Part shown: in pieces, positions 1,247 through 15,589 of the stretch
Layout: each line of letters starts with the position of its first letter
How positions within the stretch are numbered: position 1 is the first letter of the stretch
Assembly (NCBI RefSeq): GCF_002803845.1
Contig: NZ_CP024985.1
Location: forward strand, 1,116,001-1,180,000
Origin: Streptomyces lavendulae subsp. lavendulae
GTDB lineage: Bacteria; Actinomycetota; Actinomycetes; Streptomycetales; Streptomycetaceae
Length of the DNA stretch: 64,000 bases
Reading direction: 5' to 3'
Made by a program: the position numbers and the translations under genes
The notes under the pieces: model-generated
Told to the model about the DNA's origin: nothing
Database searches by the model: none
Seen by the model: only the letters and a program-made list of their open reading frames with translations

Positions 1247-2017
1247 GTGCGATACAGGATTCTCGGGAAACTTCACGTCGCGAACGAGGGAAAGCGGTTC
1301 TACCTCTCGGCCCGCAAGAAGGAAATCGTACTGGCCGCCCTTTTGGCGAGGGCGAACCACGTGGTACCGCTCGACGAGTTGATTTCCGAGATCTGGGGCC
1401 AGGAGTCACCGTTACGGGCCACCACCGCGATCCATGTGCGTATCTGCGAGCTGCGGAAATTCCTGAGGTCCTGCGGAATAGCGGAGGGGCCGATCGTCAC
1501 CCGCTCGCCCGGCTACTTCATCCGTGTCGAGCCGGGGGAGCTCGATGTCGAGAGGTTCGGTCAACTGGCTGCTCAGGGCCGCGCGGCGGCGCGGGCGGGG
1601 CAGCACAACGAGGCCGTGGAGCAGTTGCGCGCCGCACTGGAACTGACCCAGGACACGCCTCTGGGGGGCCTGCGAAGCGGTCCGATCATCAACGGCTTCG
1701 TGACCTGGCTCGACGAAACCACGCTGGATTGCACGGAATTGCTGATGGAGTCGGAACTCGCCCTGGGCGGGCACCGGGAAACGGTCAGCCGGCTGTACGC
1801 GCTCTTCGGACGGCACCCTTTGCACGAGGCGTTCCACCGGCAGCTCATGCTGGCGCTCTACCGGTGCGACCGGCGGGCGGACGCCCTGCACGTCTACCGG
1901 GTCGCCCGCGATGTCCTGAAGGAAGAACTCGGACTCGATCCCTGCCTCGCGACGCGCCGCATTCACCACGCCATTCTCGCCGCCGACAATCCCCGCCTCG
2001 CGCGCATACCGGCGTAG
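1247..2017 (+). CDS. SARP-family transcriptional activator with a TTA codon
   Basis: A 256-residue protein with the classic SARP layout: an OmpR-like winged helix (about residues 1-95, opening VRYRILGKLHV) followed by a bacterial transcriptional activation (BTAD) all-helical domain to the C-terminus. SARPs bind phased direct repeats beside the -35 element and switch on antibiotic clusters. The GTG at 1247 has GGAG five bases upstream and gives the usual SARP N-terminus; a GTG at 1193 would add 18 residues and could be leaderless. Leu56 is encoded by TTA (1412-1414), so translation should depend on the bldA tRNA, as for many pathway-specific regulators. It stands alone just before the convergent LAL operon; no obvious target cluster is in view. 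Confidence 0.88.
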   Translation: MRYRILGKLHVANEGKRFYLSARKKEIVLAALLARANHVVPLDELISEIWGQESPLRATTAIHVRICELRKFLRSCGIAEGPIVTRSPGYFIRVEPGELDVERFGQLAAQGRAAARAGQHNEAVEQLRAALELTQDTPLGGLRSGPIINGFVTWLDETTLDCTELLMESELALGGHRETVSRLYALFGRHPLHEAFHRQLMLALYRCDRRADALHVYRVARDVLKEELGLDPCLATRRIHHAILAADNPRLARIPA

Positions 2018-2040
2018 GCCGGTCCGGTCCGCCCGGTTCG

Positions 2041-4872
2041 TCAGCGCGTTTCGAGGGCCTCCAGCGCCTCCGGCAGTTCGGACCGGCCGGAAACCGTCAG
2101 CTTGCGGTAGACGACCGTGAGGTGCTTCTCCACCGCGCGGCGCGTGACGCCCAGTTCGTCGGCGATGTCGCGGTTCGACAGTCCCCGTGCGGCCAGCCCG
2201 GCGACCTTCAGCTGGATCCGGGTCGGGGCCGCCGCCCGGTCCGCCGCGGGGCCGCCCGGCAGGTTCCGGGCGCGGGCCGCGAGGTCCGGCAGGCCGCACG
2301 CCGCGGCGAGGGCGCCGCCCTCCCGCAGCAGGCTCCTCGCGCCGGGGTCCCCGTCGGCGGCCGCCCGTGCGCCGAGCTGTACGAGCGCCCTGGCCAGCTC
2401 CAGGCGGTGGTGCGAGCCGCGCAGCACGGCCACCGCCTCCCGCAGCAGGTCCGTCCCCCGTTCCCCGTCGGTCAACACGCCCCGCAGGCGCAGCGCCCTG
2501 CCGAGGACGGCCGGGGCGCCCCAGGCCCGCGCGCGCTCGTACTCGTCGCGCATCAGCTCCGCGGCCGCCTCCGTCTCGCCCAGGCGGCGGTGCGCCAGGG
2601 CCGCCCAGGGCCGCCAGGGGCCGAGGGCGGGGTTGTGCCAGCCGGCCCGCTCCAGCCGTCTGCCGCAGGCCAGGAAGTGGTCCAGGGCGGTGGCCTCGTC
2701 GCGCCGGTGGTAGGCGCGGACGCCCTGGAGCAGCTGGTGGGTGACGTTGCGGTACACCCCGGCGGTGTCCGCGGCGCCGGGGGCCGTCTCCCGGGCCAGG
2801 AGCCGGTCGGCCGCCCGCGGGTCCCCGGTCTCGATGGCCACGAGCGCCAGCGCGACGTCCGCGGCCGCGTCGGCCCCCCACCGCTGCCCGGCGGTCTCGT
2901 GGGCCCGCAGCGCCAGGGCTTCGGCCCGTACCGCGTCCCCGGACCACAGCAGGGTCACGGCGAGTTCGCTGCCGGCCAGCACCTGCGCCACCGGGGCCTT
3001 CAGGCGTACCGCGCGGGCCAGGAGGGTCTCCAGCCACCCGGGCAGGTCGGCCGGTTCGTCCGCCGCGAGCAGCGTGACCGCCAGCAGCGGCAGGGCCGTG
3101 TACGGCAGTTCGGGCACGGCCGGGGTGCGCTCCAGGATCCGCCGGGCCAGCCGGACGGCGGCCTCGCGCTCGATCCGCCCGGCCGCCACCGCGTCGTGCA
3201 GCAGTACGGTCGCCAGCTCGCGGTCGGCTCCGGTGTCGAGGGCGGGCTCCGGGCCCAGCCCGCGCAGCCGTTCCACCGACCGGGCGAGCCGTTCGGGCGT
3301 GGCGGGCTGCGTCCAGCGGACCCTGGCCTCCAGGCGCAGCGCCACCTCCGGGCGGGCTCCGTCCTGCTCCCCGCCGGGGGCGTAGGAGGCCGACTCGCGC
3401 CGGATCAGCTCGGCGGTGTGCGGCGGCGCGGTGTCGAACAGGGGCGGCGGGACGCGCAGGAGGGCCGCGGCCCGTCGCGCGGCCGAGGGCAGCAGGGGCA
3501 CCGCCTGGGAGATGTGCCGGGTGGCCATCCAGGGGTCGAGGTTGCGCTCGACGCCGGCCAGGTCGACCAGGACCGCGGCGCGGTCCTCGCCGTCGGTGGA
3601 CGCGTCCCGCAGGGCCCGGCGCAGGTACCCCACGGCCTCCTCGGGCGCACCGCGGTCGAGCGCGGCGTCGGCCGCCGCGCGCAGCGCGGTCACCGCCCAG
3701 GCGCTGTCGGCCGGGCCGGACGGCGGTGTGACCATGAGCCGGGCCGCGACCTGTTCGGCCGGGTGCCCGTTCCGGTGGAGCAGGGCCGCCGCCCGGCCGG
3801 TGAGCCGTTGGAGCTCCTCGGCCGGGATGGTCTCCTCGGCCGCGTCCCGGACCACCGGGTGGACGAAGGCCGGTGCCGTGCGGCCGGGGCCGCGGGTGAG
3901 CAGGCCCAGGCGGCGCAGCGCGCGTTCGGCGGTGCGGCAGTCCACGGCGTCCAGCTCCGCCAGGGCGCCGGTCAGCCCCGGTTCGGCCTGGTCCCCGAGG
4001 ACGGCCATGGCCCGTGCGAACCCGATGACCGGGGAGGGCAGTTGTTCCAGGCGCAGGGCGAGGCGTTCGCGCAGGACGGGCGGCCGCAGGCGCAGCGCCG
4101 ACGAGGCGTCCGCGCCGAACGGGCGCAGTCCCGCCTGCCGCATGCTGTCGCCGACGGACACGGCGAGCATCGGGCTGCCCGCGAAGGCCTCGTGGCAGGC
4201 CTGGCCGAACGCGTCGTGGACCGGTACGCCGAGGCGGCTTTCCACGACGGCGCGGACGGCGGCCGGGGACAGCGGTCGCAGCCGCAGCGTGCGCCCGCCG
4301 CCGGTGAGGAGCTCGCGCACGGCGGGCCGGTCGGCGCAGGGATCGCCGTCGGCGACGGTCAGGACGAGGGTCACCGGCCGGGCGGTGGGCCGTCTGGCGA
4401 GGTAGCCCAGCCAGCGCAGGGAGTCCGCGTCCGCCCACTGGAGGTCGTCCACCAGGACCGCCAGCGGCTGGTCGGCGGCGATGCGTTCGGCCAGCGCGCG
4501 CAGGTCCCGCAGGAGGTGCGGGTACCCCTCCGCGGCCGGTGCGGGCGCCCCGCCCACGACGGCCCAGGCGGCGGCCCCGCCCCCGTCGAGCCACCGGTCG
4601 CGGACGGGGGGCCGCGCACCGGCGAGGACGGGCTCCAGGATCTGGCGCACCACGCCGAAGGCGAAGTCCCGTTCGGACGGGGCCGCGTCGGCCCGCAGGA
4701 CCCTGGTCCGCTCCCGCGCCGCCAGTGGTGCGAGGTGGTCGAGCAGCTCCGTCTTGCCCGAGCCGAGGGCGCCGGTGACGAGGACGGGGGCGCCCGATCC
4801 TGCTCCGGGGTCCTTGGCGGCGCGCAGGGCCTCGGCCACCGCGCGCAGCTCGGCGTCGCGTTCGAGGAGCAT
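2041..4872 (-). CDS. LAL-family (AAA + LuxR) transcriptional regulator, third of the tandem trio
   Basis: A 943-residue large ATP-binding LuxR-type regulator. The N-terminal AAA module has a Walker A at about residues 34-41 (GALGSGKT) and a Walker B ending LVDDLQWAD. A long helical sensor-like region follows, then a C-terminal LuxR/GerE helix-turn-helix (GLSNRDIADELGVTRRAVEK region). Known LALs such as MalT and PikD activate sugar or polyketide genes in response to a ligand. The ATG at 4872 lies 5 bp after the stop of the upstream LAL, so the three LAL genes form one operon and this is its distal member. The ligand cannot be read from the sequence. Confidence 0.87.
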   Translation of the reverse strand: MLLERDAELRAVAEALRAAKDPGAGSGAPVLVTGALGSGKTELLDHLAPLAARERTRVLRADAAPSERDFAFGVVRQILEPVLAGARPPVRDRWLDGGGAAAWAVVGGAPAPAAEGYPHLLRDLRALAERIAADQPLAVLVDDLQWADADSLRWLGYLARRPTARPVTLVLTVADGDPCADRPAVRELLTGGGRTLRLRPLSPAAVRAVVESRLGVPVHDAFGQACHEAFAGSPMLAVSVGDSMRQAGLRPFGADASSALRLRPPVLRERLALRLEQLPSPVIGFARAMAVLGDQAEPGLTGALAELDAVDCRTAERALRRLGLLTRGPGRTAPAFVHPVVRDAAEETIPAEELQRLTGRAAALLHRNGHPAEQVAARLMVTPPSGPADSAWAVTALRAAADAALDRGAPEEAVGYLRRALRDASTDGEDRAAVLVDLAGVERNLDPWMATRHISQAVPLLPSAARRAAALLRVPPPLFDTAPPHTAELIRRESASYAPGGEQDGARPEVALRLEARVRWTQPATPERLARSVERLRGLGPEPALDTGADRELATVLLHDAVAAGRIEREAAVRLARRILERTPAVPELPYTALPLLAVTLLAADEPADLPGWLETLLARAVRLKAPVAQVLAGSELAVTLLWSGDAVRAEALALRAHETAGQRWGADAAADVALALVAIETGDPRAADRLLARETAPGAADTAGVYRNVTHQLLQGVRAYHRRDEATALDHFLACGRRLERAGWHNPALGPWRPWAALAHRRLGETEAAAELMRDEYERARAWGAPAVLGRALRLRGVLTDGERGTDLLREAVAVLRGSHHRLELARALVQLGARAAADGDPGARSLLREGGALAAACGLPDLAARARNLPGGPAADRAAAPTRIQLKVAGLAARGLSNRDIADELGVTRRAVEKHLTVVYRKLTVSGRSELPEALEALETR

Positions 4873-4877
4873 CCGGC

Positions 4878-7388
4878 TCAGTCCTTGTCGGGGAGGGGAC
4901 GGGAGAGGTCCGCCCGGCCGGAGAGGCCGAGCTTGCGGTAGACGCGGCTGAGGTGCATCTCGACCATGCGCCGGGACACGCCGAGGCGGAGCGCGATCGC
5001 CCCGTTGGTGAGCCCCTCGCGGACCAGTTCGGCGGCGCGCGTCTCGGCCGCGGTCAGCTCCTCGCGGACCGGCTCGCCGGCGTGCGCCGCCGGGAAGGGG
5101 CCCTTGGTCCGGCCCCCGGCTCCGGGTGGCGGGGTCGGGGTGCCGTGTGCGCCGGTCAGTGCCCGGACCCGGCGCGCCCGGCGGGGCGCGGCCCACTCGG
5201 CGGGGGTGTCCTCCCGGAGCAGCAGCCGCGCCGCCTCGTCCCGGGCCGCTCGGGCCCGTTCCCCCTCGGTCACCCGCCCCACGGCGAGCAGGGCCGTACC
5301 GATGGCGCTCGCGCTCCCCCACGCCCGGGCCTCGGCGAGTTCCGCGGCGGCGAGACATGTCGCCCCGGTCCGGTCGCCGCCGCCCAGGCGGGCGAGGGCG
5401 GCCGCGGAGCGCCAGGGCACGAAGGAGGGGTTGGTCCACCCCCGGGCCAGTAGCCCGCGTCCGCATTCCAGCAGGTCCGGCAGTGCGGCCCCGTGGTCGC
5501 CGGTGCGCAGGCCCAGGCGGCCCCTGGCGTAGAGGAACGTCGGCCACCACATGCCGCTGACCGCCCGCAGGGGCACTTCGGCCGTGGCGGCCCGGCCCGC
5601 GTCGTCCACCTCGTCGCGCTCCAGGTGCAGCAGGATCCGCAGGGCGGTGGTCAGCGGCACGGACTTCACGGATCCGGAGCCCTGGGACGCCGCCCATTCG
5701 GCCTCCGCCAGGTCCTGTTCCGCCTCCTGGAGCCAGCCCCGGCGCAGGGCGACGCTCGCGCGTACGGCCAGGGCCGCGGCGACGGCGGTCCGCGCCCGCA
5801 GCGCGCGGGCCTGCGCCACGATCGGGTCGAGGCCGGCGGCGGCGTCCTCGTGGGAGTCCGCCAGGGCCAGCGCGTAGCAGGCCGCCAGCCGTGTGGTGAA
5901 CAGCGGCGGGTGGCCGGGCGCGGGGCGCAGCGCGGCCCCGGCCAGGGCGCGCACGCGGGCGGGCGGCAGCGCCCCGGAGAGGGCGCCGCGCAGGGCCGCC
6001 ACGCCTTCCTGCGCGGGCCCCCGGGGCGGTACGGGCAGCGGCGGTACGCGGGCCGCGACGTCCGCGCTCTCCTCCGTGGGCGCCGTGTCCTCGATCAGCC
6101 AGTGCAGGGCGAGGAGGGCGTTGCGCTCCGGCTCCGGGGTGTCCGGGTGGGCCAGTGTCCGGGGAAGGGCGGCGGCGCGGCGCACCGTCGTCTCGTGTCC
6201 GCAGGTGGCGAGGAGGTCCGCGGCCCGCAGCCGGTCCGCGGCCGGGACGTGGTCGTCGGGGCTGTTGAGCAGCCGCCACCCCGCGCGCTCGTCGCAGTCG
6301 GGGCCCTCGCCGAACGGGTCCGCGTCGGCGGACGGGCCCGGGTCGGCGGGCGGGGCGGTGCGGGGGGCGAGTACGGCGGCGCGCGCATGCAGGGCCGCGC
6401 GCTCCGCCCCGGTCAGGCCGGCAAGGGCCCGTTCGGCGACGCCCGGTGGTGTGCGCGGGGCGTCCGTGCCCTCGACGAGGCCCGTGTCGGTCAGCAGGCA
6501 CAGCGCGCGGGACACCGGTACGGTGCGCAGTGCGGCCAGTTCGCCCAGCGCGGCGGGGCCGAGGTGCGGCCCGGCGGCGGCGATGGCGCGCAGGAGGCGG
6601 ACGTGCTCCTCGGACAGGCCGTCGATCAGCCGTGCGGTGCGGTCGCCGACGGACTCGGCGGCGCGCCGGGGCAGTTCGGCGGCCGTGTGCGCGCTCGGCT
6701 CCAGCCCGTCCGCGTCGATCCCGTCCACCACCGCGCGCAGCACGGCCGGGTTGCCCGCGCAGGCTTCGGCCGCGGCTCCGGCGAAGGCCGGATCCACGGG
6801 CCCCTCGAAGGCGGCGGCCAGCATCGCGGCCACGCCGAGCGGGGTCAACGGGCGCAGTGCGAGGCGGGCGACGGCGGCGGGGGCTTCGTCGGAGCGGCCG
6901 TCCTGGCCCGGCCGGCCGGCGGGGACGGCGCCGCGGGTCCCGGCGACGAGGATCGCCAGGGGCGCGCCGCGGGCCCGCCGGATCAGGGCCTCCAGCCAGT
7001 GCCGCGAGTCCGCGTCCGCCCACTGCGCGTCGTCGACGGAGAGCAGCAGCGGACGTTCGCGGGCCGCGGCGAGGAACAGCTCGCACAGCGCGGGCAGCGG
7101 CAGGGCGGCGGGGGCCGGTGCGCCGGGGGTGTCCGGCCCGGCCAGGAGCTGGGTGACGATGCCGAAGGGCAGGGCCGATTCCGTCGGGGAGCCGGCCGCG
7201 TGCGCGACGGCGCATCCGGCGTCCCGCGCCCGCGCGGCGGCGTACCGCAGCAGTGCGCTGCGGCCGGTGCCGGGGGCTCCCTCGACGGCGACGACGCGGG
7301 AACGTCCGGCGAGCAGGTCCGCCACGGCCGCGCGCAGCAGCGCCAGTTCACCGTCCCGCTCGACGAGGGCGGCGGAGGTCCGGTCCAT
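4878..7388 (-). CDS. LAL-family regulator, second of the trio, with altered Walker A
   Basis: An 836-residue protein with the same plan as its neighbours: an N-terminal ATPase module, a helical middle and a C-terminal LuxR helix-turn-helix (GLTNGAIALRLGVSRRMVEM region, about the last 60 residues). The Walker A reads GAPGTGRS at about residues 37-44, with Arg43 where the nucleotide-binding Lys is expected. Walker B is intact (SVDDAQWAD, about 117-125). Lys-to-Arg at this position usually weakens ATP hydrolysis or binding, so this member may be a constitutive, inactive or regulatory partner. It starts 8 bp after the stop of the first LAL gene and stops 5 bp before the third. Confidence 0.87.
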   Translation of the reverse strand: MDRTSAALVERDGELALLRAAVADLLAGRSRVVAVEGAPGTGRSALLRYAAARARDAGCAVAHAAGSPTESALPFGIVTQLLAGPDTPGAPAPAALPLPALCELFLAAARERPLLLSVDDAQWADADSRHWLEALIRRARGAPLAILVAGTRGAVPAGRPGQDGRSDEAPAAVARLALRPLTPLGVAAMLAAAFEGPVDPAFAGAAAEACAGNPAVLRAVVDGIDADGLEPSAHTAAELPRRAAESVGDRTARLIDGLSEEHVRLLRAIAAAGPHLGPAALGELAALRTVPVSRALCLLTDTGLVEGTDAPRTPPGVAERALAGLTGAERAALHARAAVLAPRTAPPADPGPSADADPFGEGPDCDERAGWRLLNSPDDHVPAADRLRAADLLATCGHETTVRRAAALPRTLAHPDTPEPERNALLALHWLIEDTAPTEESADVAARVPPLPVPPRGPAQEGVAALRGALSGALPPARVRALAGAALRPAPGHPPLFTTRLAACYALALADSHEDAAAGLDPIVAQARALRARTAVAAALAVRASVALRRGWLQEAEQDLAEAEWAASQGSGSVKSVPLTTALRILLHLERDEVDDAGRAATAEVPLRAVSGMWWPTFLYARGRLGLRTGDHGAALPDLLECGRGLLARGWTNPSFVPWRSAAALARLGGGDRTGATCLAAAELAEARAWGSASAIGTALLAVGRVTEGERARAARDEAARLLLREDTPAEWAAPRRARRVRALTGAHGTPTPPPGAGGRTKGPFPAAHAGEPVREELTAAETRAAELVREGLTNGAIALRLGVSRRMVEMHLSRVYRKLGLSGRADLSRPLPDKD

Positions 7389-7396
7389 GCCCGCGA

Positions 7397-10309
7397 TCAC
7401 CGCGCGCCCGTCTGCGGGCGGGGCCCGGACGGGGCGGGGGCGAGGGCGCGGAGCGCGTCGGGGAGGTCGGCCCGGCCGACCAGCCCGAGCTTGCGGTAGA
7501 CCGAGGTGAGGTGCATCTCCACGGTGCGCCGGGCGATGAACAGGGTCTCGGCGATCTCCTGGTTGGTGGCGCCCTCCGCCGCCGCCCCCGCGACCCGGTG
7601 CTCGATGCCGCTCAGCGGGCAGGGCCGGGGGCGCGCCGCCGCGCCGGTGCGGGGAGCGGGGCCGGGCCCGGTGAGGCCCGCCGCGGCCAGCGCCGCCCGG
7701 ACCCCGGCGGTCAGGGCGGGCGAGCCGCAGCGGCGGGCCGTCTCGTGGGCGCGGCCCAGGTGGCGGCGGGCGCCCGCCGTGTCGCCGCACCGCGCCAGGT
7801 GCCCGCCCAGCAGCAGTTCGGCCCGCGCCCGGTCCAGCCGGGCCTGGGACCGGGACAGCGCCTCGACCGCGCCGGTCAGGAACTCGGTGCGCCGGTCCCC
7901 GTCGGCCACCGTGCCCGCCGCCAGGAGGGCGTGCCCGAGGGCGTACGGGGTGCCCCAGCGGTCGGCCAGTTCCCGTGCCTCGGCGGCCAGTTCGGCCGCT
8001 TCGGCGGTGCGGCCGAGCCGGACCAGGGCCGTGACGGCCAGGGGTCGCCAGGGGGCCCAGGGCCGCCCGTCGAGGCCGGCCTCCGCGAGTCCGTGCTCGC
8101 ACCGCAGCGCACACACCAGCGCGCCTTCCGCGTCCCCGCGTCCGAGCCGGATCCGGGCCCGGGCCATCAGGTACGGGATCCTGCCCAGGAGGGTGTGGTC
8201 CAGGTGGCTGGAGGCGACCCGGTCGAGCATCGTCTCCGCGGCCTCGGTGTCGGCCTGCTCCAGCCGGACGCAGCCCCAGGCGACGAACGGCAGGGCCGAA
8301 CCGCCCGGACCGGGGTGTTCCACGGCTTCCAGAGCGGCCCGTGCGTCGAGGGCCGCGCCGGGGACGTCGCCGAGGCGGTGGCGGACCATGGAGCGTTCGG
8401 CCAGGAGCGACCAGCGGGGCAGGCAGCCGCTGTCGTCGGTCATCGCCAGGTCCAGCATCTCCAGAGCCATGCCGGGTTCGTCGGCCAGGTGGAGCACCTG
8501 GGCCGCGCGGGCGCGCATCCAGTCCCGGGGGGCGGCGCCCTCGGCCCGGACGGCCCGGCCCACGAGGTCCACGGCCTCGCGGGCGGACTCCCCCTCGACG
8601 GCGGCGAGCAGGGCCCGGGCGAGGAGGCCGGCGCTCCCCTGCGGCGCCGGCTCCTCCCCCAACGCCGCCCGGGCGCGTTCGCGTACGGCGGGGAACGCCG
8701 ACGGCCGGTGCAGACCGGCGGCGAGGACGGCCAGTTCGACGGTCCCCCGCAGTGCGCGGTCCTCGGCGTCCGCGCCGGGCTCCTCGGCCGGGCGGGCGGG
8801 CGTCCGGGAGAGCACGGCGAGGGCCGCCGCCGCATCGCCCGCGGCGAGGGCGGTCATCGCGAACTGCACGGCCACCGAGGCGCGCAGGCGGACGTCCCGG
8901 GTCTGGTCGAGCAGGCCGCGCAGCGCGTCCAGCGCTTCGGCGGGGTGGGTGGCGGCCAGCGCCCCGGCCAGTTCGAGGGCGGTGCGCACCCGGCCGGTTT
9001 CCTCGGGCTCGGCCTCCATCAGCCGCCGCAGGTACGGGACCGCCGCCGACCGGGGGCCGGTGCGGCCCGCGCGTTCGGCGGCGTCGCGCAGGGCGCCGAG
9101 CATCCAGCCCTCGTCGAGCCGGGGCAGGGGGAGCAGGTGCCTCGCCACCTCGGCGGAGGCGAAGCCCTCGTCGTTGAGGAGCCGTGCGGCGCGGGTGCGC
9201 AGGCGCACCAGTTCCCCGGGCGGGGCGGCGGCGAGCACGGCCGCGTGGAAGGCCTCCTCCCCGTCGACGGAGAGGAGTTCGTCGTCCCGGTGGCCGTCCA
9301 GGACCGCCGGGACGAGGCGGGGCGGCACGCCGGCGAGCGCGCCGACGCGTTCGGGAGAGGCGGTCTGGCCGGTGCCCCCGTCCGCCGGGGACGGCGGGCG
9401 GTCACTCCGGTCCAGGACGGCGGCGGCCCGTACGACGCGCAGCTCCGTCTCGGTCAGACCGCGCAGGTGGGCCCGTACCGACGCGGCGTGGACCTCCCGC
9501 CACGCCGCGTCGACCTGCCCCACGGACCGGGCTTCGGGCCGGACGCCCGCGCGGCGCAGCCGTAACAGGATGCGTCGCAGGAGGAGGGGGTTGCCGTCGG
9601 AGAGTGCGGCGCAGCGCCAGGTGAAGGGGGGTTCCGGCGCCTGCCCCAGGATGGCCTCGACGGTCTCGGCCACCTGTTCCTCGGCCACCGGCCCGAGGCC
9701 GACGAGGCGGGTCCCCGGATGCCGGACGATCCTGGCGAGCGCCGAGCGGGCCGGTCCGGTACCGGAGGCGCCCCAGGCGAGCACGGTCAGCAGCCGCGCG
9801 CTCTCGGTCCTGCGGATCAGGGACTCCAGCCAGCGCAGGGACGGCCCGTCGCACCACTGCGCGTCGTCCACGACGATCACCAGCGGGCCCCGCGCCATGA
9901 GGGTGGAGGCCAGCCATTCCGTGCGGGGCGGGACGCGCTCGGCTTCCGCGCCGGGCCCGAACAGCTCGCGGACCGCGCCGTATTCGGTGGTCGCGCGCTC
10001 CGGGCGGCCCGCGGTGTGCAGCACGGTGGCCCCGCGCAGTCGGCCGTCGCGGCGGAAGCCGTCGATCAGGGCCGTCTTCCCGATGCCCGTGTTCCCGCGC
10101 ACCACGACGCACCCGGCGCGGCCGGCGTCGGCCGCTTCGGCGCACGCGAAGAGGGCGGCCAGTTCGCCGGAGCGGCCTGCGGGTCCGGGGGTTCGGCCGG
10201 CCGCCACGGGGGAGCGGCCGGCCGCGCCCGGCTTGGTGGGCTCCGCGCTCACCGCGGCGCGGGCCGGTCCGCGCTCCCCGCGCGCGGACGGGGGAAACGC
10301 TGTCTGCAT
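7397..10309 (-). CDS. LAL-family regulator, first of the trio, with a TTA codon
   Basis: A 970-residue LAL regulator. An Ala/Pro-rich lead of about 45 residues precedes the AAA module with Walker A at about 72-79 (GNTGIGKT) and Walker B around 145-152 (IVVDDAQWCD). A tetratricopeptide-like helical body follows, and the protein ends with a LuxR helix-turn-helix (GATNQEIAETLFIARRTVEM region). The ATG at 10309 has GAGGA eight bases upstream. One leucine, about residue 249, is encoded by TTA (plus-strand bases 9563-9565), which implies bldA control of the lead gene of this operon. It is divergent from the large SARP gene across a 304-bp regulatory gap. Confidence 0.88.
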   Translation of the reverse strand: MQTAFPPSARGERGPARAAVSAEPTKPGAAGRSPVAAGRTPGPAGRSGELAALFACAEAADAGRAGCVVVRGNTGIGKTALIDGFRRDGRLRGATVLHTAGRPERATTEYGAVRELFGPGAEAERVPPRTEWLASTLMARGPLVIVVDDAQWCDGPSLRWLESLIRRTESARLLTVLAWGASGTGPARSALARIVRHPGTRLVGLGPVAEEQVAETVEAILGQAPEPPFTWRCAALSDGNPLLLRRILLRLRRAGVRPEARSVGQVDAAWREVHAASVRAHLRGLTETELRVVRAAAVLDRSDRPPSPADGGTGQTASPERVGALAGVPPRLVPAVLDGHRDDELLSVDGEEAFHAAVLAAAPPGELVRLRTRAARLLNDEGFASAEVARHLLPLPRLDEGWMLGALRDAAERAGRTGPRSAAVPYLRRLMEAEPEETGRVRTALELAGALAATHPAEALDALRGLLDQTRDVRLRASVAVQFAMTALAAGDAAAALAVLSRTPARPAEEPGADAEDRALRGTVELAVLAAGLHRPSAFPAVRERARAALGEEPAPQGSAGLLARALLAAVEGESAREAVDLVGRAVRAEGAAPRDWMRARAAQVLHLADEPGMALEMLDLAMTDDSGCLPRWSLLAERSMVRHRLGDVPGAALDARAALEAVEHPGPGGSALPFVAWGCVRLEQADTEAAETMLDRVASSHLDHTLLGRIPYLMARARIRLGRGDAEGALVCALRCEHGLAEAGLDGRPWAPWRPLAVTALVRLGRTAEAAELAAEARELADRWGTPYALGHALLAAGTVADGDRRTEFLTGAVEALSRSQARLDRARAELLLGGHLARCGDTAGARRHLGRAHETARRCGSPALTAGVRAALAAAGLTGPGPAPRTGAAARPRPCPLSGIEHRVAGAAAEGATNQEIAETLFIARRTVEMHLTSVYRKLGLVGRADLPDALRALAPAPSGPRPQTGAR

Positions 10310-10465
10310 GGTGACGGTCCTCGGGTGGATTCCTGTTCGTGCGGCGCGGTCCGGCGTTCGGCGGGGCGGGGGTGACGGCGGGCCGGACCGTCGACCGGCG
10401 TACGGTGGCCGGCCGCTCCCCGTCGTTCGGCGCCCCCCGGTACCGTGCCATCCTGCACCGCCCCC

Positions 10466-10514
10466 CTTGCGAACGCCTTGCCAAGGGCTTGCCGTGGCCG
10501 AACGGCCACCTTGG
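10466..10514 (+). promoter_or_regulatory. SARP-type operator: 11-bp phased CTTGC repeats overlapping a promoter
   Basis: CTTGC occurs at 10466, 10477 and 10488, exactly 11 bp apart, and CTTGG follows at 10510, in the same phase after one skipped turn. The last copy overlaps TTGGAA (10511-10516), which lies 17 bp before GATGAT (10534-10539), a plausible -35/-10 pair for the SARP gene at 10614. A 6-2-6 inverted repeat (TCATCA/TGATGA, 10525-10538) overlaps the -10. Phased heptamers overlapping the -35 are the known layout of SARP binding sites, so autoregulation, or control by the SARP at 1247, is inferred. The gap 10310-10613 holds no gene. Confidence 0.55.
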
Positions 10515-10613
10515 AATACGCCGTTCATCATGTGATGATCCAATTTGTCTGGCGGCGGTGACGCGGTGCCGACCGAGTGCCAGCGCAGCCACGTGTGCAA
10601 GATGGGGAGCTCC

Positions 10614-13600
10614 ATGCCCGCAATTCCGACGGCGGACCGTCCGGCCGAGCCCCTGCTGAGGGTGCTGGGCCCCATGGCGGCCCGCCACGACGGACGCGAC
10701 CTCCCGCTCGGCCCGCCGCGCCGGCGGGCCCTGTTCGCCCTGCTCCTCGTACGCCTCGGACGCGTCGTGCCCACGGAGGTCCTCGTCGAGGAGCTGTGGG
10801 GCGGGGAGCCGCCGCGCCAGGCCGTCGCCACCCTCCAGAGCCACGTCTCCCACCTGCGCCGCGCCCTGCGGCCGGCGGCCGCGGCGGCCCGGCTGTCGGT
10901 GCGCCACCGGGCCCAGGGCTACGTCCTCGACGTCGATCCGGAGCAGGTCGACGTGTGCCGCTTCGAGCGGCTGGTCGCCGAGGGGCGGCAGTTGCTCGAA
11001 CGGCAGGATCCGGCCGGGGCGCGCGACCGGCTGGCGCAGGCACTGCGCCTGTGGCGGGGGTCCCCGTACGCGGAGTTCGACGCCCATCCGTCGCTGTACG
11101 ACGAGACGACACGGCTGGAGCAGCTCCGGCTGACCGCCGTGGAGGTCCACGCGGAGGCCCGACTGCTCCTCGGGGCGGACGAGGAGGTGGCCGCCGACCT
11201 CGACGGGGAGGCCCGCCGCCACCCGACCCGGGAACGCCTCGTCGGCCACCTGATGACCGCCCTGTCCCGGCTGGGCCGGCAGGCGGAGGCGCTGGAGGCC
11301 TACGAACGCACGCGCGTCCACCTCTCCGAGGAGTTCGGCGTGGAGGCCGACGCCGAGCTGCGCCGGATCCGGACGGCGCTCCTGACCCGCGAACCGGAGG
11401 CGGCCGTTCCCGTCCCGGCACCGCGCGCGCGGGAGCGGCCCCGCACCGACGGCGCCGGGGAGGCGGGCCGCGGCGGCACGCCCGTCCCGGCCCCGCCCGC
11501 ACCCGGCCCCGCCCACCCCGCGCCGCCCGGGGCGGACGATCCCCTCGACGCCCCGTCCGGGGACCGGTACGAGGACCCGGCCGAAGACCGGTACGCGGAC
11601 CCGTGCCCGGACGGGGACGGCGGGACGGCGCCCCGGCAGGCGGTGGACGGCCCGTCCGAGCAGGGCCGGCCGGCCGGGCCCTCGCCGTTCACCGGGCGCT
11701 TCCGCGAACTGGACGGCCTCACGGCCGCCGTGGCCGACGTGCGCGTGGGTCACGGGCACGTGGCCGGGGTGCTCGGCCCCGCCGGCATGGGCAAGACCCG
11801 CCTGCTCCTCGAACTGGCCCCCCGGCTGGAAGCCATCGGCTCGGGAACGGACGGGGACGAGGGGCTGGAGGTGGTCTGGAGCCACTGCTTCCCCGGCGAG
11901 GGCGTCCCGCCCTACTGGCCGTGGACGCAGGTCCTGCGCCGGCTGGCCGCCACCCGCCCCGAGGCCTTCCGGGACGCGGCGAGGCCCTTCGGCGCGCTGC
12001 TCTCCCCCGTGATGCCCGAGCGGACGGCCGGGGCCGGTGGCGCCGCCGGAGCCGGATCCGATGCCGGAGCCGACTGGGCCCAGGCCCGGTTCCTGACCAA
12101 CGACGCGGTCTGCGAGGTGCTGCTCGCCCTGGCCGGCCGACGCCCGCTGGTGCTGTTCCTGGAGGACCTGCACTGGGCCGACACCGCCTCCCTGGACCTG
12201 CTCCGTCTGCTGAGCACCCGCCGCCACGGCCACCCGCTCGCGATCGTGCTGACCGCCCGCGACTTCGAGGTCGAATCCGACGCCACCCTGCGCCGGACCC
12301 TCTCCGAGGTCCTGCGCGGTCCGCGCACCCAGACCCTGCGGCTGGACGGGCTCTCCCGCCGGGCCGTCGCCGCGCTCGTCCGGGCGCAGGCCGGGCCGGG
12401 CGTGGACGCGGAGGTCGTCGAAGTGCTGCACCGGCGCAGCGAGGGCAACCCGTACTTCGTGATGCAGCTCCTGTCCCTCCTCGGCGACGCCCGCAGCCTG
12501 CACCGGTCGGACGCGGTGGACACGCTGCTGTCCCGCGTGCCCACCGGCGTGCGCGAGGCCCTGAACCAGCGGTTCGCGAAGCTGCCCGGACCGGTCCTGC
12601 GCGTGCTGCGGCTGTGCGCGGTCCTCGGCACCGAGGTCGACACCGACCTGCTGCACCGCACGGTCGCGGGGGACGAGCCGGTGACCGAGGCGCTGGAGGC
12701 GGCGATCCGCGCCGGCCTGTTCGAGGAGGACCCGCACCATCCCGGGCGGCTGCACTTCGCCCACGCCCTGGTGCAGGAGACGCTCGTCGCCGAGCTGGCC
12801 CGCCAGGACCTGCACCGGCTGCACGCCAAGATCGCCGAGGCCCTGTGCGCGCGCCGGCGGGGGCGGGTGGGTGACGAGGAGATCGAGCGGGTGGCCCACC
12901 ACACCTGGCACGCCGAGCGCGCCCTGCCCGCCGGGAGAGCGCTCCCGAGACTGCTCCAGGCCGCGGAACAGGCCGAGCAGCAACTGGCGTACGAGCGGGT
13001 GGAGACCTGGCTGCGCCGGGCGGTGCACCTGATCGGCTTCCTGCCCCCGGACGAGACCGCGACCGTACGCCTCGAACAGCAGCTGCACATCCAGCTCGGC
13101 CAGGTCCTGGCCACCACCCGCGGCTACGGCCATCCGGAGGCGGAGGCGGCGCTGGCGCACGGCCGGGCGCTCAATCCGGTGACGCGGGCCCCGGAGGACC
13201 CGTCGGTGCTCTGGGCGCTGTGCGCGGCCTACCTGGTCACCGGCCGCTACGACGCCTCACGGCAGTTCTCCGGCCTGTTGCGGGAGATGTCGCACCACGC
13301 CGAGGAGCCGGTGGCGGTGCTCGGAGCGGCGTACGGCGAGGGCATCGTGCTGCACGTGCGGGGGATGCTGCCGCAGGCCCTCGCCGAGCTGGAGCACGGT
13401 GTCGAGAGGGCGGACCGGTACGCCCGCGACGGCCATTCCCTGGCCCGGACCTTCCAGCACGACCCGCGCGTCTCCTGCCGGTCCTACAACGCGTTCACGC
13501 ACTGGCTCCTGGGCGACCGCCCGACCGCCACCGCGCGCCGCCGCGAGCTCCTGCGCCTGACCGCGTACGACAGCAGACCCTCGGACCGCTGTTTCGCCCT

Positions 13601-14066
13601 CTACGTGGACGCGGTCGTGGCGGCCTGGGAGGGCGACGCGGGCACGGCCCTGTCCTCGGGCGCCGAGGGGGTCCGGCTGGCGGGAGAGCACGGGCTGCTC
13701 TACTGGAAGGCCATGCTCGGCCTGCTGGAAGGCTGGGGCCTGACCCATTCCGCACGGGAGGCGGAGGGCCTGGGCCTGATGCACGCCTCGATGGACCGGC
13801 TGCGCGGCTCCAGGACCCTGCTGCGCCACCCCCTCCACCTGGGCCTGCTGGGCCAGGCCCAGCATCACGCGGGGCGCCGGGAGGAGGCGCAGGAGACCTT
13901 CCACGCCCTCCTGGCCGCGGTCGAAGAGCGCCGTGAGGACGTCTACCTCCACCCGGCGCTCCCCGCCACGGGGCTCATCCGTACGCTGCTCGGCCCCGCG
14001 GGGACGGTCGCCGTCGCCGCGCCTAGGCCGGGTTCCAGTGGAACCTCCCGCCCCCGACCCACCTGA
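10614..14066 (+). CDS. Large SARP regulator (winged helix-BTAD-AAA-TPR)
   Basis: An 1150-residue activator of the long SARP class. The winged helix (about residues 14-105) and BTAD (about 110-255) are followed by a Pro/Ala/Asp-rich linker (about 260-360). An NTPase domain comes next, with Walker A near 387-394 (GPAGMGKT) and Walker B near 512-521 (VLFLEDLHWAD), and then a TPR-rich C-terminal half. The chosen ATG has GGGGAG four bases upstream; an upstream ATG at 10545 lacks such a site. The promoter carries phased CTTGC repeats. Family knowledge points to ATP-modulated activation of secondary metabolism. The 3' end overlaps the convergent small gene by 44 bp. The target genes are not in this window. 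Confidence 0.88.
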   Translation: MPAIPTADRPAEPLLRVLGPMAARHDGRDLPLGPPRRRALFALLLVRLGRVVPTEVLVEELWGGEPPRQAVATLQSHVSHLRRALRPAAAAARLSVRHRAQGYVLDVDPEQVDVCRFERLVAEGRQLLERQDPAGARDRLAQALRLWRGSPYAEFDAHPSLYDETTRLEQLRLTAVEVHAEARLLLGADEEVAADLDGEARRHPTRERLVGHLMTALSRLGRQAEALEAYERTRVHLSEEFGVEADAELRRIRTALLTREPEAAVPVPAPRARERPRTDGAGEAGRGGTPVPAPPAPGPAHPAPPGADDPLDAPSGDRYEDPAEDRYADPCPDGDGGTAPRQAVDGPSEQGRPAGPSPFTGRFRELDGLTAAVADVRVGHGHVAGVLGPAGMGKTRLLLELAPRLEAIGSGTDGDEGLEVVWSHCFPGEGVPPYWPWTQVLRRLAATRPEAFRDAARPFGALLSPVMPERTAGAGGAAGAGSDAGADWAQARFLTNDAVCEVLLALAGRRPLVLFLEDLHWADTASLDLLRLLSTRRHGHPLAIVLTARDFEVESDATLRRTLSEVLRGPRTQTLRLDGLSRRAVAALVRAQAGPGVDAEVVEVLHRRSEGNPYFVMQLLSLLGDARSLHRSDAVDTLLSRVPTGVREALNQRFAKLPGPVLRVLRLCAVLGTEVDTDLLHRTVAGDEPVTEALEAAIRAGLFEEDPHHPGRLHFAHALVQETLVAELARQDLHRLHAKIAEALCARRRGRVGDEEIERVAHHTWHAERALPAGRALPRLLQAAEQAEQQLAYERVETWLRRAVHLIGFLPPDETATVRLEQQLHIQLGQVLATTRGYGHPEAEAALAHGRALNPVTRAPEDPSVLWALCAAYLVTGRYDASRQFSGLLREMSHHAEEPVAVLGAAYGEGIVLHVRGMLPQALAELEHGVERADRYARDGHSLARTFQHDPRVSCRSYNAFTHWLLGDRPTATARRRELLRLTAYDSRPSDRCFALYVDAVVAAWEGDAGTALSSGAEGVRLAGEHGLLYWKAMLGLLEGWGLTHSAREAEGLGLMHASMDRLRGSRTLLRHPLHLGLLGQAQHHAGRREEAQETFHALLAAVEERREDVYLHPALPATGLIRTLLGPAGTVAVAAPRPGSSGTSRPRPT

Positions 14067-14374: not shown

Positions 14375-15589
14375 TCAGGTGATCGTCCAGTGCTGGAGGG
14401 CCGATCCGGTGTCCGGTTGCTGGGTGACCGGGGAGCCGGCGGCCGTGGAGGCGGTGGTGAGGAGCAGCCCGCTCTTCACCGAGGTGACGGTGTGGGTGCC
14501 GTCCTGGCCCCGGACGACGGTCCAGCGCTGGTTCGCGCCGCCGTGGCAGGTCCACTGGATCACCTTGGCGCCCGCCGCGGTGGATCCGCCGCTGATGTCG
14601 GCGCAGAGGCCGGACTCGGCGTTGACGATCTCGTAGGAGCCGTCCGGCTGACGCGTGAAGTTCCACTTCTGGTTGGCGCCGGTGTTCGGCGTGTACGTGA
14701 TGAGCTGGGTGCCCGCGGTGGTGCTGTGGCCGGGGTCGTCGAGGGCCCGGCCGCCGGAGACGAGCGTGCGGGTGCCGTCGAGGGTGCCGGGGGCGGGTCC
14801 CACCGCCGTGAGGGTCAGGGTCTGCTCGGCCGCCGTGCGCGCACCGCCCACCCCGCCACCGGTGTCGGTCCAGGAGCGGGCCGGGGTGGTCTCGGCCGGC
14901 CGGGAGGCCACGGCCGACAGGGCGATGACCAGCCCGCTGTACCGGTTGACGAGGCGGTGGGTGCCGGTGGGTCCGCCGTCGGCGGAGGTGCCGGGGACGA
15001 CCCACCACTGCCGGCCGGTCAGCGCGTCGCGCACCCACCGGAGGTAGGCGTGGTCGTCGCCGTGGCTGCCGTACTCGTTCTCGATCTGTACGGCCACCAC
15101 GGGGCCGCCGTGGCGGGCCTGGAGGGCCGCGATGCGGGGGATCAGCGCGTCGAACCAGCGGGCGACCGCTGCCAGGAAGGGCGGGTGGGAGGTGCGCGGG
15201 CGCATGCCCGGGGTTCCGGTCAGCCAGGCGGGGAGTCCGCCGTTGTCCCATTCGGCGCAGATGTAGGGGCCGGGCCGGACGATCACGTCGAGCCCGGCCC
15301 GCCCGGCCAGGCCGATGAACCGCTCCAGGTCGCGCGGGCCGTCGAAGCGGACGTCCCCCGGGGTCCGCTCGTGGAAGTTCCAGGGGACGTAGGTGTCGAC
15401 CGTGTTGAGTCCGAGGGCCGCCACGCGCTCCAGGCGGTCGGCCCACTGTCCGGGGTGGACGCGGAAGTAGTGCAGGGAGCCGGACAGCACGCGGTGCGGT
15501 CGGCCCGCGCGCAGGAAGGCACCGCCGGTGTGGGTCAGCGTGGCCGGTGCACCGCTCGTGGCCCGCCCTCCGGATGTTATCGATGCCAA
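14375..15589 (-). CDS. Chimeric protein: truncated GH35 beta-galactosidase joined to a ricin-B lectin domain
   Basis: A 404-residue ORF of two unrelated parts. Residues about 25-193 are the first half of a GH35 beta-galactosidase barrel: SGSLHYFRVHP, TYVPWNFHE, CAEWDNGGLP, and IENEYG with the acid/base Glu. Sequence similarity stops at RDALTGR, so the second half of the barrel with the catalytic nucleophile Glu is absent. After a junction near residue 193 come a linker and a C-terminal beta-trefoil (about 270-404) with QxW repeats (NQKW, NQRW, LQHW), typical of carbohydrate-binding ricin-B domains. No signal peptide is seen. The TTG start at 15589 lies inside a LacI operator, with a GGGAGGGG run just upstream. 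Galactosidase activity is not expected; it may be a deletion fusion or a pseudogene. Confidence 0.7.
   Translation of the reverse strand: MASITSGGRATSGAPATLTHTGGAFLRAGRPHRVLSGSLHYFRVHPGQWADRLERVAALGLNTVDTYVPWNFHERTPGDVRFDGPRDLERFIGLAGRAGLDVIVRPGPYICAEWDNGGLPAWLTGTPGMRPRTSHPPFLAAVARWFDALIPRIAALQARHGGPVVAVQIENEYGSHGDDHAYLRWVRDALTGRQWWVVPGTSADGGPTGTHRLVNRYSGLVIALSAVASRPAETTPARSWTDTGGGVGGARTAAEQTLTLTAVGPAPGTLDGTRTLVSGGRALDDPGHSTTAGTQLITYTPNTGANQKWNFTRQPDGSYEIVNAESGLCADISGGSTAAGAKVIQWTCHGGANQRWTVVRGQDGTHTVTSVKSGLLLTTASTAAGSPVTQQPDTGSALQHWTIT
15575..15589 (-). promoter_or_regulatory. LacI-type operator O2 overlapping the GH35-fusion start codon
   Basis: TGTTATCGATGCCAA on the plus strand is an exact copy of the O1 site 79 bp away. 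It has the central CG and imperfect two-fold symmetry of LacI/GalR operators. Read on the minus strand, its first three bases are the TTG start codon, so a bound repressor would block elongation or initiation there. Confidence 0.6.

Follow-up and report, generated by a model that had tools for sequence, protein, structure and literature searches.

A candidate PimR-type operator between a SARP-LAL gene and three divergent LAL genes in Streptomyces lavendulae

The closest described systems are the operators of PimR and related SARPs. The SARP domain of PimR is reported to protect TGGCAAGaaagCGGCAGGtgttCGGCAAG on the coding strand of pimM, and by qRT-PCR the deletion of pimR lowered pimM 90-fold and left pimR at 0.84 (PMC3367932). 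The same report assigns to SanG and PolR the CGGCAAG heptamer consensus that they share with PimR. As described in PMC5930380, the heptamer triplet is required for full pimM expression and pimaricin production, with 4-bp spacers preferable to 3-bp ones; SanG and PolR have single doublets, so the secondary operator is not universal, and in PnR2 and ChxA the function of the divergent gene is not conserved. Autoregulation by SARPs is not unheard of, since a PieR site upstream of pieR is among those listed in a review (PMC10972967). In the literature searched at the level of titles and abstract openings, we found no report of a SARP-LAL controlling LAL genes.

The regulator genes and the phased array

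The window analysed here is a stretch of 64,000 nucleotides from Streptomyces lavendulae subsp. lavendulae (NZ_CP024985.1, 1,116,001 to 1,180,000). Five regulator genes were considered, with domains assigned by Pfam:

1247 to 2017, plus strand: small SARP, 256 amino acids, Trans_reg_C and BTAD, convergent to LAL3
2041 to 4872, minus strand: LAL3, 943 amino acids, AAA_16 and GerE
4878 to 7400, minus strand: LAL2, 840 amino acids, AAA_16 and GerE, 4-bp overlap with the end of LAL1
7397 to 10309, minus strand: LAL1, large ATP-binding LuxR-type regulator, 970 amino acids, AAA_16 and GerE, first gene of the presumed target operon
10614 to 14066, plus strand: SARP-LAL gene, 1150 amino acids from the conserved ATG, the start codon being set by conservation

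The product of 10614-14066 carries Trans_reg_C (OmpR-type DNA-binding), BTAD and AAA_16, with no GerE at E <= 1e-5; by these predicted domains it is a PimR-type SARP-LAL, in which a SARP domain is followed by an AAA/LAL-like half without the LuxR HTH.

The plus-strand repeats that gave rise to the original prediction, CTTGC at 10466, 10477 and 10488 and CTTGG at 10510, are present at these positions, as are TTGGAA (10511-10516) and the TCATCA/TGATGA palindrome (10525-10538). Read on the minus strand, the three CTTGC copies form the following element:

10466 to 10494, minus strand: candidate PimR-type operator reading toward the LAL operon; CGGCAAG (10494-10488), TGGCAAG (10483-10477) and TCGCAAG (10472-10466), separated by the 4-bp spacers ccct and gcgt

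Its three heptamers match the unit published for PimR, SanG and PolR (PMC3367932) at 18 of 21 letters. The array is the one place in the 64-kb window that scores at least 18/21 against this unit, 0.01 such matches being expected per 64 kb (mean of 100 first-order resamplings), and among spacings of 8 to 22 bp a triple of 18/21 occurs at 11 bp alone. Triples of at least 16/21 numbered two at 11 bp versus five each at 9, 12 and 21 bp; since other spacings thus equal or exceed 11 bp at this lower level, the high score alone is significant. CTTGC-N6-CTTGC occurs twice in the window, both times within the array, compared with a mean of 0.03 in shuffled sequences, none of 100 of which reached two. 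The plus strand of the intergenic region, which faces the SARP gene, yielded a best triple of 11/21, and heptamers facing the SARP gene, as an autoregulatory operator would have, were not found in this region. A secondary two-heptamer operator as at pimM was not found in the window either, where no other pair at the 11-bp spacing scores at least 13/14. The array thus has CGGCAAG-type heptamers, an 11-bp period and three copies, and it lies between the SARP-LAL gene and the divergent gene with its heptamers pointing toward the latter, which is the placement of the PimR type. Its sequence features support the assignment as a genuine PimR-type SARP operator, which would be a new example of a known operator type.

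A genome scan for CTTGC-N6-CTTGC arrays, proposed earlier as a way to find targets, singled out the array but yielded no regulon. The three-copy form of CTTGC occurs once in the 8.93-Mb genome (reversed control pattern, 0), and the array is also the sole exact genomic match to three copies of YSGCARG. A looser three-copy pattern with up to two mismatches gave 29 matches versus 43 for its reversed control, and the two-copy pattern gave 7 versus 13; because the matches are fewer than those of the commoner control, the loose patterns carry no signal and no genome-wide regulon can be claimed from them. Besides the window's own, the surroundings of the two-copy matches at C1:722744, C1:2524052, C2:5047 and C2:55970 were examined (C1:3749455 and C1:4857939 were left out), together with those of C1:8381617 among the 29 three-copy matches. 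The match at C1:722744 is inside a predicted gene. An imperfect triple, TGACAAG, TGGCAAG and CGACAAG, occupies C1:8381617-8381645 (L128:9618-9646), a position that gene prediction places between genes. It is upstream of a SARP-LAL paralogue, at a distance of about 1.8 kb that includes two other genes, and may serve that paralogue as an operator or have arisen by chance. The doublet at C1:2524052-2524069 (CGGCAAG and TGGCAGG, separated by gttg) precedes a predicted DUF3071 gene by about 128 bp and is possibly due to chance.

Homologous promoters and the SARP promoter

A single homologue scan provided 40 loci, 16 of which (L029-L044, including S. natalensis and S. filipinensis) were used, with SARP domains 69-76% identical; the 24 more distant loci were left out. 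These 16, the window and six further loci (L092, L094-L098) make up a set of 23, to which L093, from the same genome as L034, does not add; L077, at a contig edge, is outside the promoter counts. Among arrays that point away from the SARP gene, the best one outscored all 200 resamplings in 17 of 17 regions (the 16 and the window). This best array was not at the usual place in L030, L031, L036 and L037, where a doublet or a degraded triple stands instead, and in L040 the array lies 539-567 bp upstream of the SARP gene, with none within 420 bp. Arrays facing the SARP gene occurred in 14 of the 17 regions and were each equalled by 48-163 of 200 resamplings. Five of the six further loci, considered without resampling, carry arrays (two heptamers only in L097), and L098, with a related SARP, has none.

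The weights of the resampling scan were chosen after a first look at the loci, and the strict published heptamer was therefore used for the 23-locus and window counts. Within 420 bp upstream of the SARP start, triples facing away reached 16-20 of 21 letters in 21 of the 23 loci, the exceptions being L040 (11) and L098 (12), and triples facing the SARP gene scored 11-14 of 21 in all 23; in L043, the published PimR array likewise faces away. Altogether, an array of the PimR type accompanies the SARP-LAL gene in 22/23 loci. The idea of a SARP operator built of phased direct heptamers, for which a lack of conservation in orthologous promoters had been named beforehand as the adverse outcome, is thus supported by the 18/21 match, the 11-bp phase and the conservation of the repeats. 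The divergent genes in ten of the 16 homologues encode LuxR (L029), TauD (L030), PAS-LuxR (L031), FemAB-like (L032), methyltransferase (L033), KS-KR PKS (L034, L044), AT-TE (L036), medium SARP (L038) and AT (L041) proteins. Across these ten, the window and its close relative G038, the operator stays and the divergent gene varies in kind. L036 does not correspond to the natamycin ScnRI locus, as its divergent gene encodes the AT-TE protein.

By analogy with AfsR (PMC10936776), we took PRQAVATLQSHVSHLRRAL as the recognition helix of the SARP-LAL, a mapping that is our own. This segment is identical in the S. filipinensis homologue and one residue apart from that of S. natalensis PimR (H for Q), and the small SARP of the window has many differences from the SARP-LAL at the aligned positions. 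The protein that binds the array is, judged from these alignments, most likely the neighbouring SARP-LAL. In L098, which lacks an array, the presumed helix carries Y in place of H and C in place of S; L029 also carries Y in place of H, yet its array is present. HLSR replaces HVSH in L038 and L095, both with CTGCAAG as the heptamer nearest the SARP gene. Such cases are at most suggestive.

Between the array and the SARP-LAL gene, three features were delineated:

10510 to 10516, plus strand: CTTGGAA, containing the likely -35 (TTGGAA, 10511-10516) of the SARP-LAL promoter
10530 to 10541, plus strand: ATGTGATGATCC, core of the SARP-LAL promoter by homologue conservation, with the putative -10 GATGAT at 10534-10539
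10525 to 10538, no strand: TCATCA-TG-TGATGA palindrome over the putative -10, in the window and G038

GATGAT follows TTGGAA after 17 bp in the window, and the alignment of 16 regions has CTTGGAA, about 17 bp and then, as the homologues' core element, ATGCCAAGATCC or similar. Of the 23 homologous promoters, 12 have exact CTTGGA at the corresponding position ahead of the SARP gene; it is absent from several polyene-type loci. Because of this conservation, TTGGAA is likely the -35 of the SARP promoter, as originally proposed. The pimR start site, as published (PMC3367932), fits the conserved core only loosely, and the -10 assignment is therefore tentative; a sigma-70 consensus scan gave nothing. 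The original prediction had also counted CTTGG at 10510 as a fourth repeat, which we rejected: read as a heptamer, TTCCAAG agrees with CGGCAAG in 4/7 letters and is a poor copy, no heptamer occupies the intervening step (10499-10505) toward the array, and CTTGGA is conserved as a promoter element, so that CTTGG is better read as part of the -35. A second regulator at the palindrome was not supported either, since the palindrome is found in two of 23 loci, the window and G038, and is absent from the other 21; the intergenic region of G038 is nearly identical overall to that of the window.

Two further patterns were observed around this promoter. In 3/23 loci (L036, L033, L029), an inverted repeat with perfect 8-bp arms, GATCTTGG and CCAAGATC, and an 18-bp gap spans the SARP -35 and -10; it is degenerate in the window. 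In L034/L093, L033 and L044, the 11-bp steps continue from the operator toward the SARP -35, with CGACCAG or CGACAAG filling the step that is empty in the window; a spreading of bound monomers onto the SARP promoter is possible in these loci.

The regulator island and its surroundings

Positions 1247-10309 of the window form a regulator-only island of three tandem LAL genes and the convergent small SARP gene. The LALs, arranged head to tail, share 31-43% identity with one another in partial alignments. The complete five-regulator island is present in one other genome, G038, and LAL1 DNA was found in 2 of 382 genomes of the genus, including the window's own, at E <= 1e-60 in a DNA search that distant homologues would escape. 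In the 16 homologous loci, the search for LAL1-3 partners returned only weak matches to the SARP-LAL itself (L031 has less than 1 kb upstream available).

Window and G038 differ at 14 positions in the 304-bp intergenic region and at 11.9-19.4% of four-fold sites in the five regulator genes; the intergenic region as a whole is more conserved than silent sites. The stretch 10463-10542, whose edges were set at the flanking differences, contains one difference, in a spacer, versus about 3.7 expected for these 80 bp from the intergenic average, and the operator stretch is not clearly more conserved than that average. On the side of the LAL operon, the best promoter candidate was the following:

10450 to 10455, minus strand: CAGGAT, weak candidate -10 of the LAL operon, kept in G038 and following the last heptamer at a distance of 10 nt

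No convincing conserved LAL promoter was found, and nothing comparable to CAGGAT is kept in the homologues beyond G038.

SARP-LAL genes usually, though not by definition, lie beside biosynthetic genes. No evident biosynthetic cluster appeared in Pfam scans of 37 window genes or frames and of 13 genes from the upstream 40 kb; coverage of the downstream 20 kb (L071) was by gene prediction only. On the chromosome, where the window spans 1.116-1.180 Mb, the stretch from 863 kb to 2.09 Mb is free of Condensation domains and that from 644 kb to 1.826 Mb of full ketosynthases, and neither a full ketosynthase nor a Condensation domain lies within 250 kb of the island; these chromosome searches bear on clusters with such domains and may miss other types. 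Partial ketosynthase matches of 32-42 out of 252 positions, just above the cut-off, are located at 1.352 and 1.675 Mb. A search of the plasmids with the intergenic stretch gave nothing. The GH35/ricin-lectin gene at 14375-15490 matches about half of the GH35 profile (counterpart in L092, 16350-19315), and G038 has about 3 kb extra at the place matching window 15011-15017; an internal deletion that left a fusion could account for the window version.

The likely target of the array and its place among known systems

We favour, with a probability of about 0.77, the reading that 10466-10494 is the operator of the neighbouring SARP-LAL and activates the divergent LAL1-LAL2-LAL3 operon, and that the SARP gene has its own promoter, TTGGAA-N17-GATGAT. 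The letters, spacing, orientation and conservation of the operator and the identity of the presumed recognition helix point to it; we infer the binding itself, the activation of the LAL operon, the grouping of the three LALs in a single operon and the location of its promoter. In a mechanism modelled on PimR (PMC5930380) and on the AfsR structure as described in PMC10936776, about three SARP-LAL monomers would bind side by side on the minus-strand heptamers, lined up along the same helix face with 11 bp for each, and would recruit RNA polymerase to the promoter that the repeats face, that of the divergent LAL1-LAL2-LAL3 operon. They might do so either by overlapping the -35, as with SanG and PolR, or from an upstream site, as with PimR. 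The three-LAL operon (10309 to 2041) appears to be the likeliest target because of the heptamer orientation and the PimR precedent, in which pimM is activated and pimR is not autoregulated. The original prediction had named this operon with a "perhaps" and had taken a self-contained autoregulatory circuit as the main role, having been led to the wrong main target by reading the repeats on the plus strand. We do not favour autoregulation as the main function, as the heptamers point away from the SARP gene in 21/23 loci and PimR is not autoregulated in the expression data reported (PMC3367932). Some findings count against the favoured reading: CAGGAT is weak and kept only as far as G038, there is no pimM-like secondary operator, L098 and L040 are exceptions, and the register between array and SARP promoter is conserved, which would also be expected of an autoregulatory site.

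This register is also an argument for the SARP-LAL binding the array chiefly on behalf of its own gene, by upstream activation or by monomers spreading onto the -35. In 20 of the 23 loci (not in L040, L097 and L098), the start of a heptamer of at least 6/7 precedes the SARP core element by 42-44 bp, the 11-bp steps of L093 extend without a break from the array via CGACCAG to TTCCAAG on the -35, and the PieR site is listed upstream of its own gene (PMC10972967). However, the core-to-ATG length is conserved as well (84-92 bp in 19 of those 20 loci, 127 in L094), so the register may be plain co-inheritance, and we dropped the fixed spacing as proof of autoregulation. With the heptamers facing away, the intermediate step (10499-10505) empty in the window and the PimR data opposed to it, we consider control of its own gene as the main role unlikely. 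A dual role, in which the array activates the LAL operon and modulates the SARP promoter as well, would draw on the same register and on the unbroken steps of L093, and an operator between divergent promoters can serve both; the PimR expression data (PMC3367932) speak against this too, and such dual control seems to us just as improbable. The array might also be a fossil, moved with the SARP-LAL gene from a biosynthetic cluster and without control over the adjoining LAL genes. The rarity of LAL1 DNA (2/382 genomes), the distance of at least 250 kb to any full ketosynthase or Condensation domain and the lack of a conserved LAL promoter would fit, but the operator and core promoter have hardly changed between the window and G038, below the four-fold rate, and all five regulator genes are present in both, which makes a fossil very improbable.

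Within the favoured reading, activation of the LAL operon by the SARP-LAL, a particular operator is paired with its likely protein, and a switch that can be tested is placed above three uncharacterised LAL regulators; operator orientation could also aid target prediction when silent Streptomyces genomes are mined. A more speculative extension, which we hold to be doubtful, is that the SARP-LAL and its operator left a cluster and now drive, as a stand-alone island, a relay of three LAL activators acting on distant clusters. If this were true, SARP-LAL signalling would have turned global instead of pathway-specific.

Compared with known systems, the unusual feature would be the target, a rare three-LAL island. 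Like the PimR operator of S. natalensis pimM-pimR (pimaricin; PMC3367932, PMC5930380), the array consists of three heptamers of the CGGCAAG type, 4 bp apart, in the region that separates a SARP-LAL gene from the divergent regulatory gene they face, and the presumed recognition helices are one residue apart; unlike it, the array would act on three LALs rather than on the PAS-LuxR gene pimM, and the window has no secondary doublet and no biosynthetic cluster seen alongside. The SanG and PolR operators (nikkomycin, polyoxin; PMC3367932, PMC5930380) share the heptamer consensus, but are described with two heptamers over the target -35, whereas the window has three and a putative target promoter. 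The putative operators of PnR2 (phoslactomycin) and ChxA (cycloheximide), as presented in PMC5930380, resemble the array in that heptamers with 4-bp spacers lie between a SARP-LAL gene and a divergent gene of other function; they differ in lying within biosynthetic clusters and, for ChxA, in having a doublet only. The afs box of AfsR (PMC10936776) likewise has 11-bp direct repeats on which SARP protomers sit side by side, although its repeat letters are different and AfsR carries NOD and TPR domains in contrast to the LAL-like half found here.
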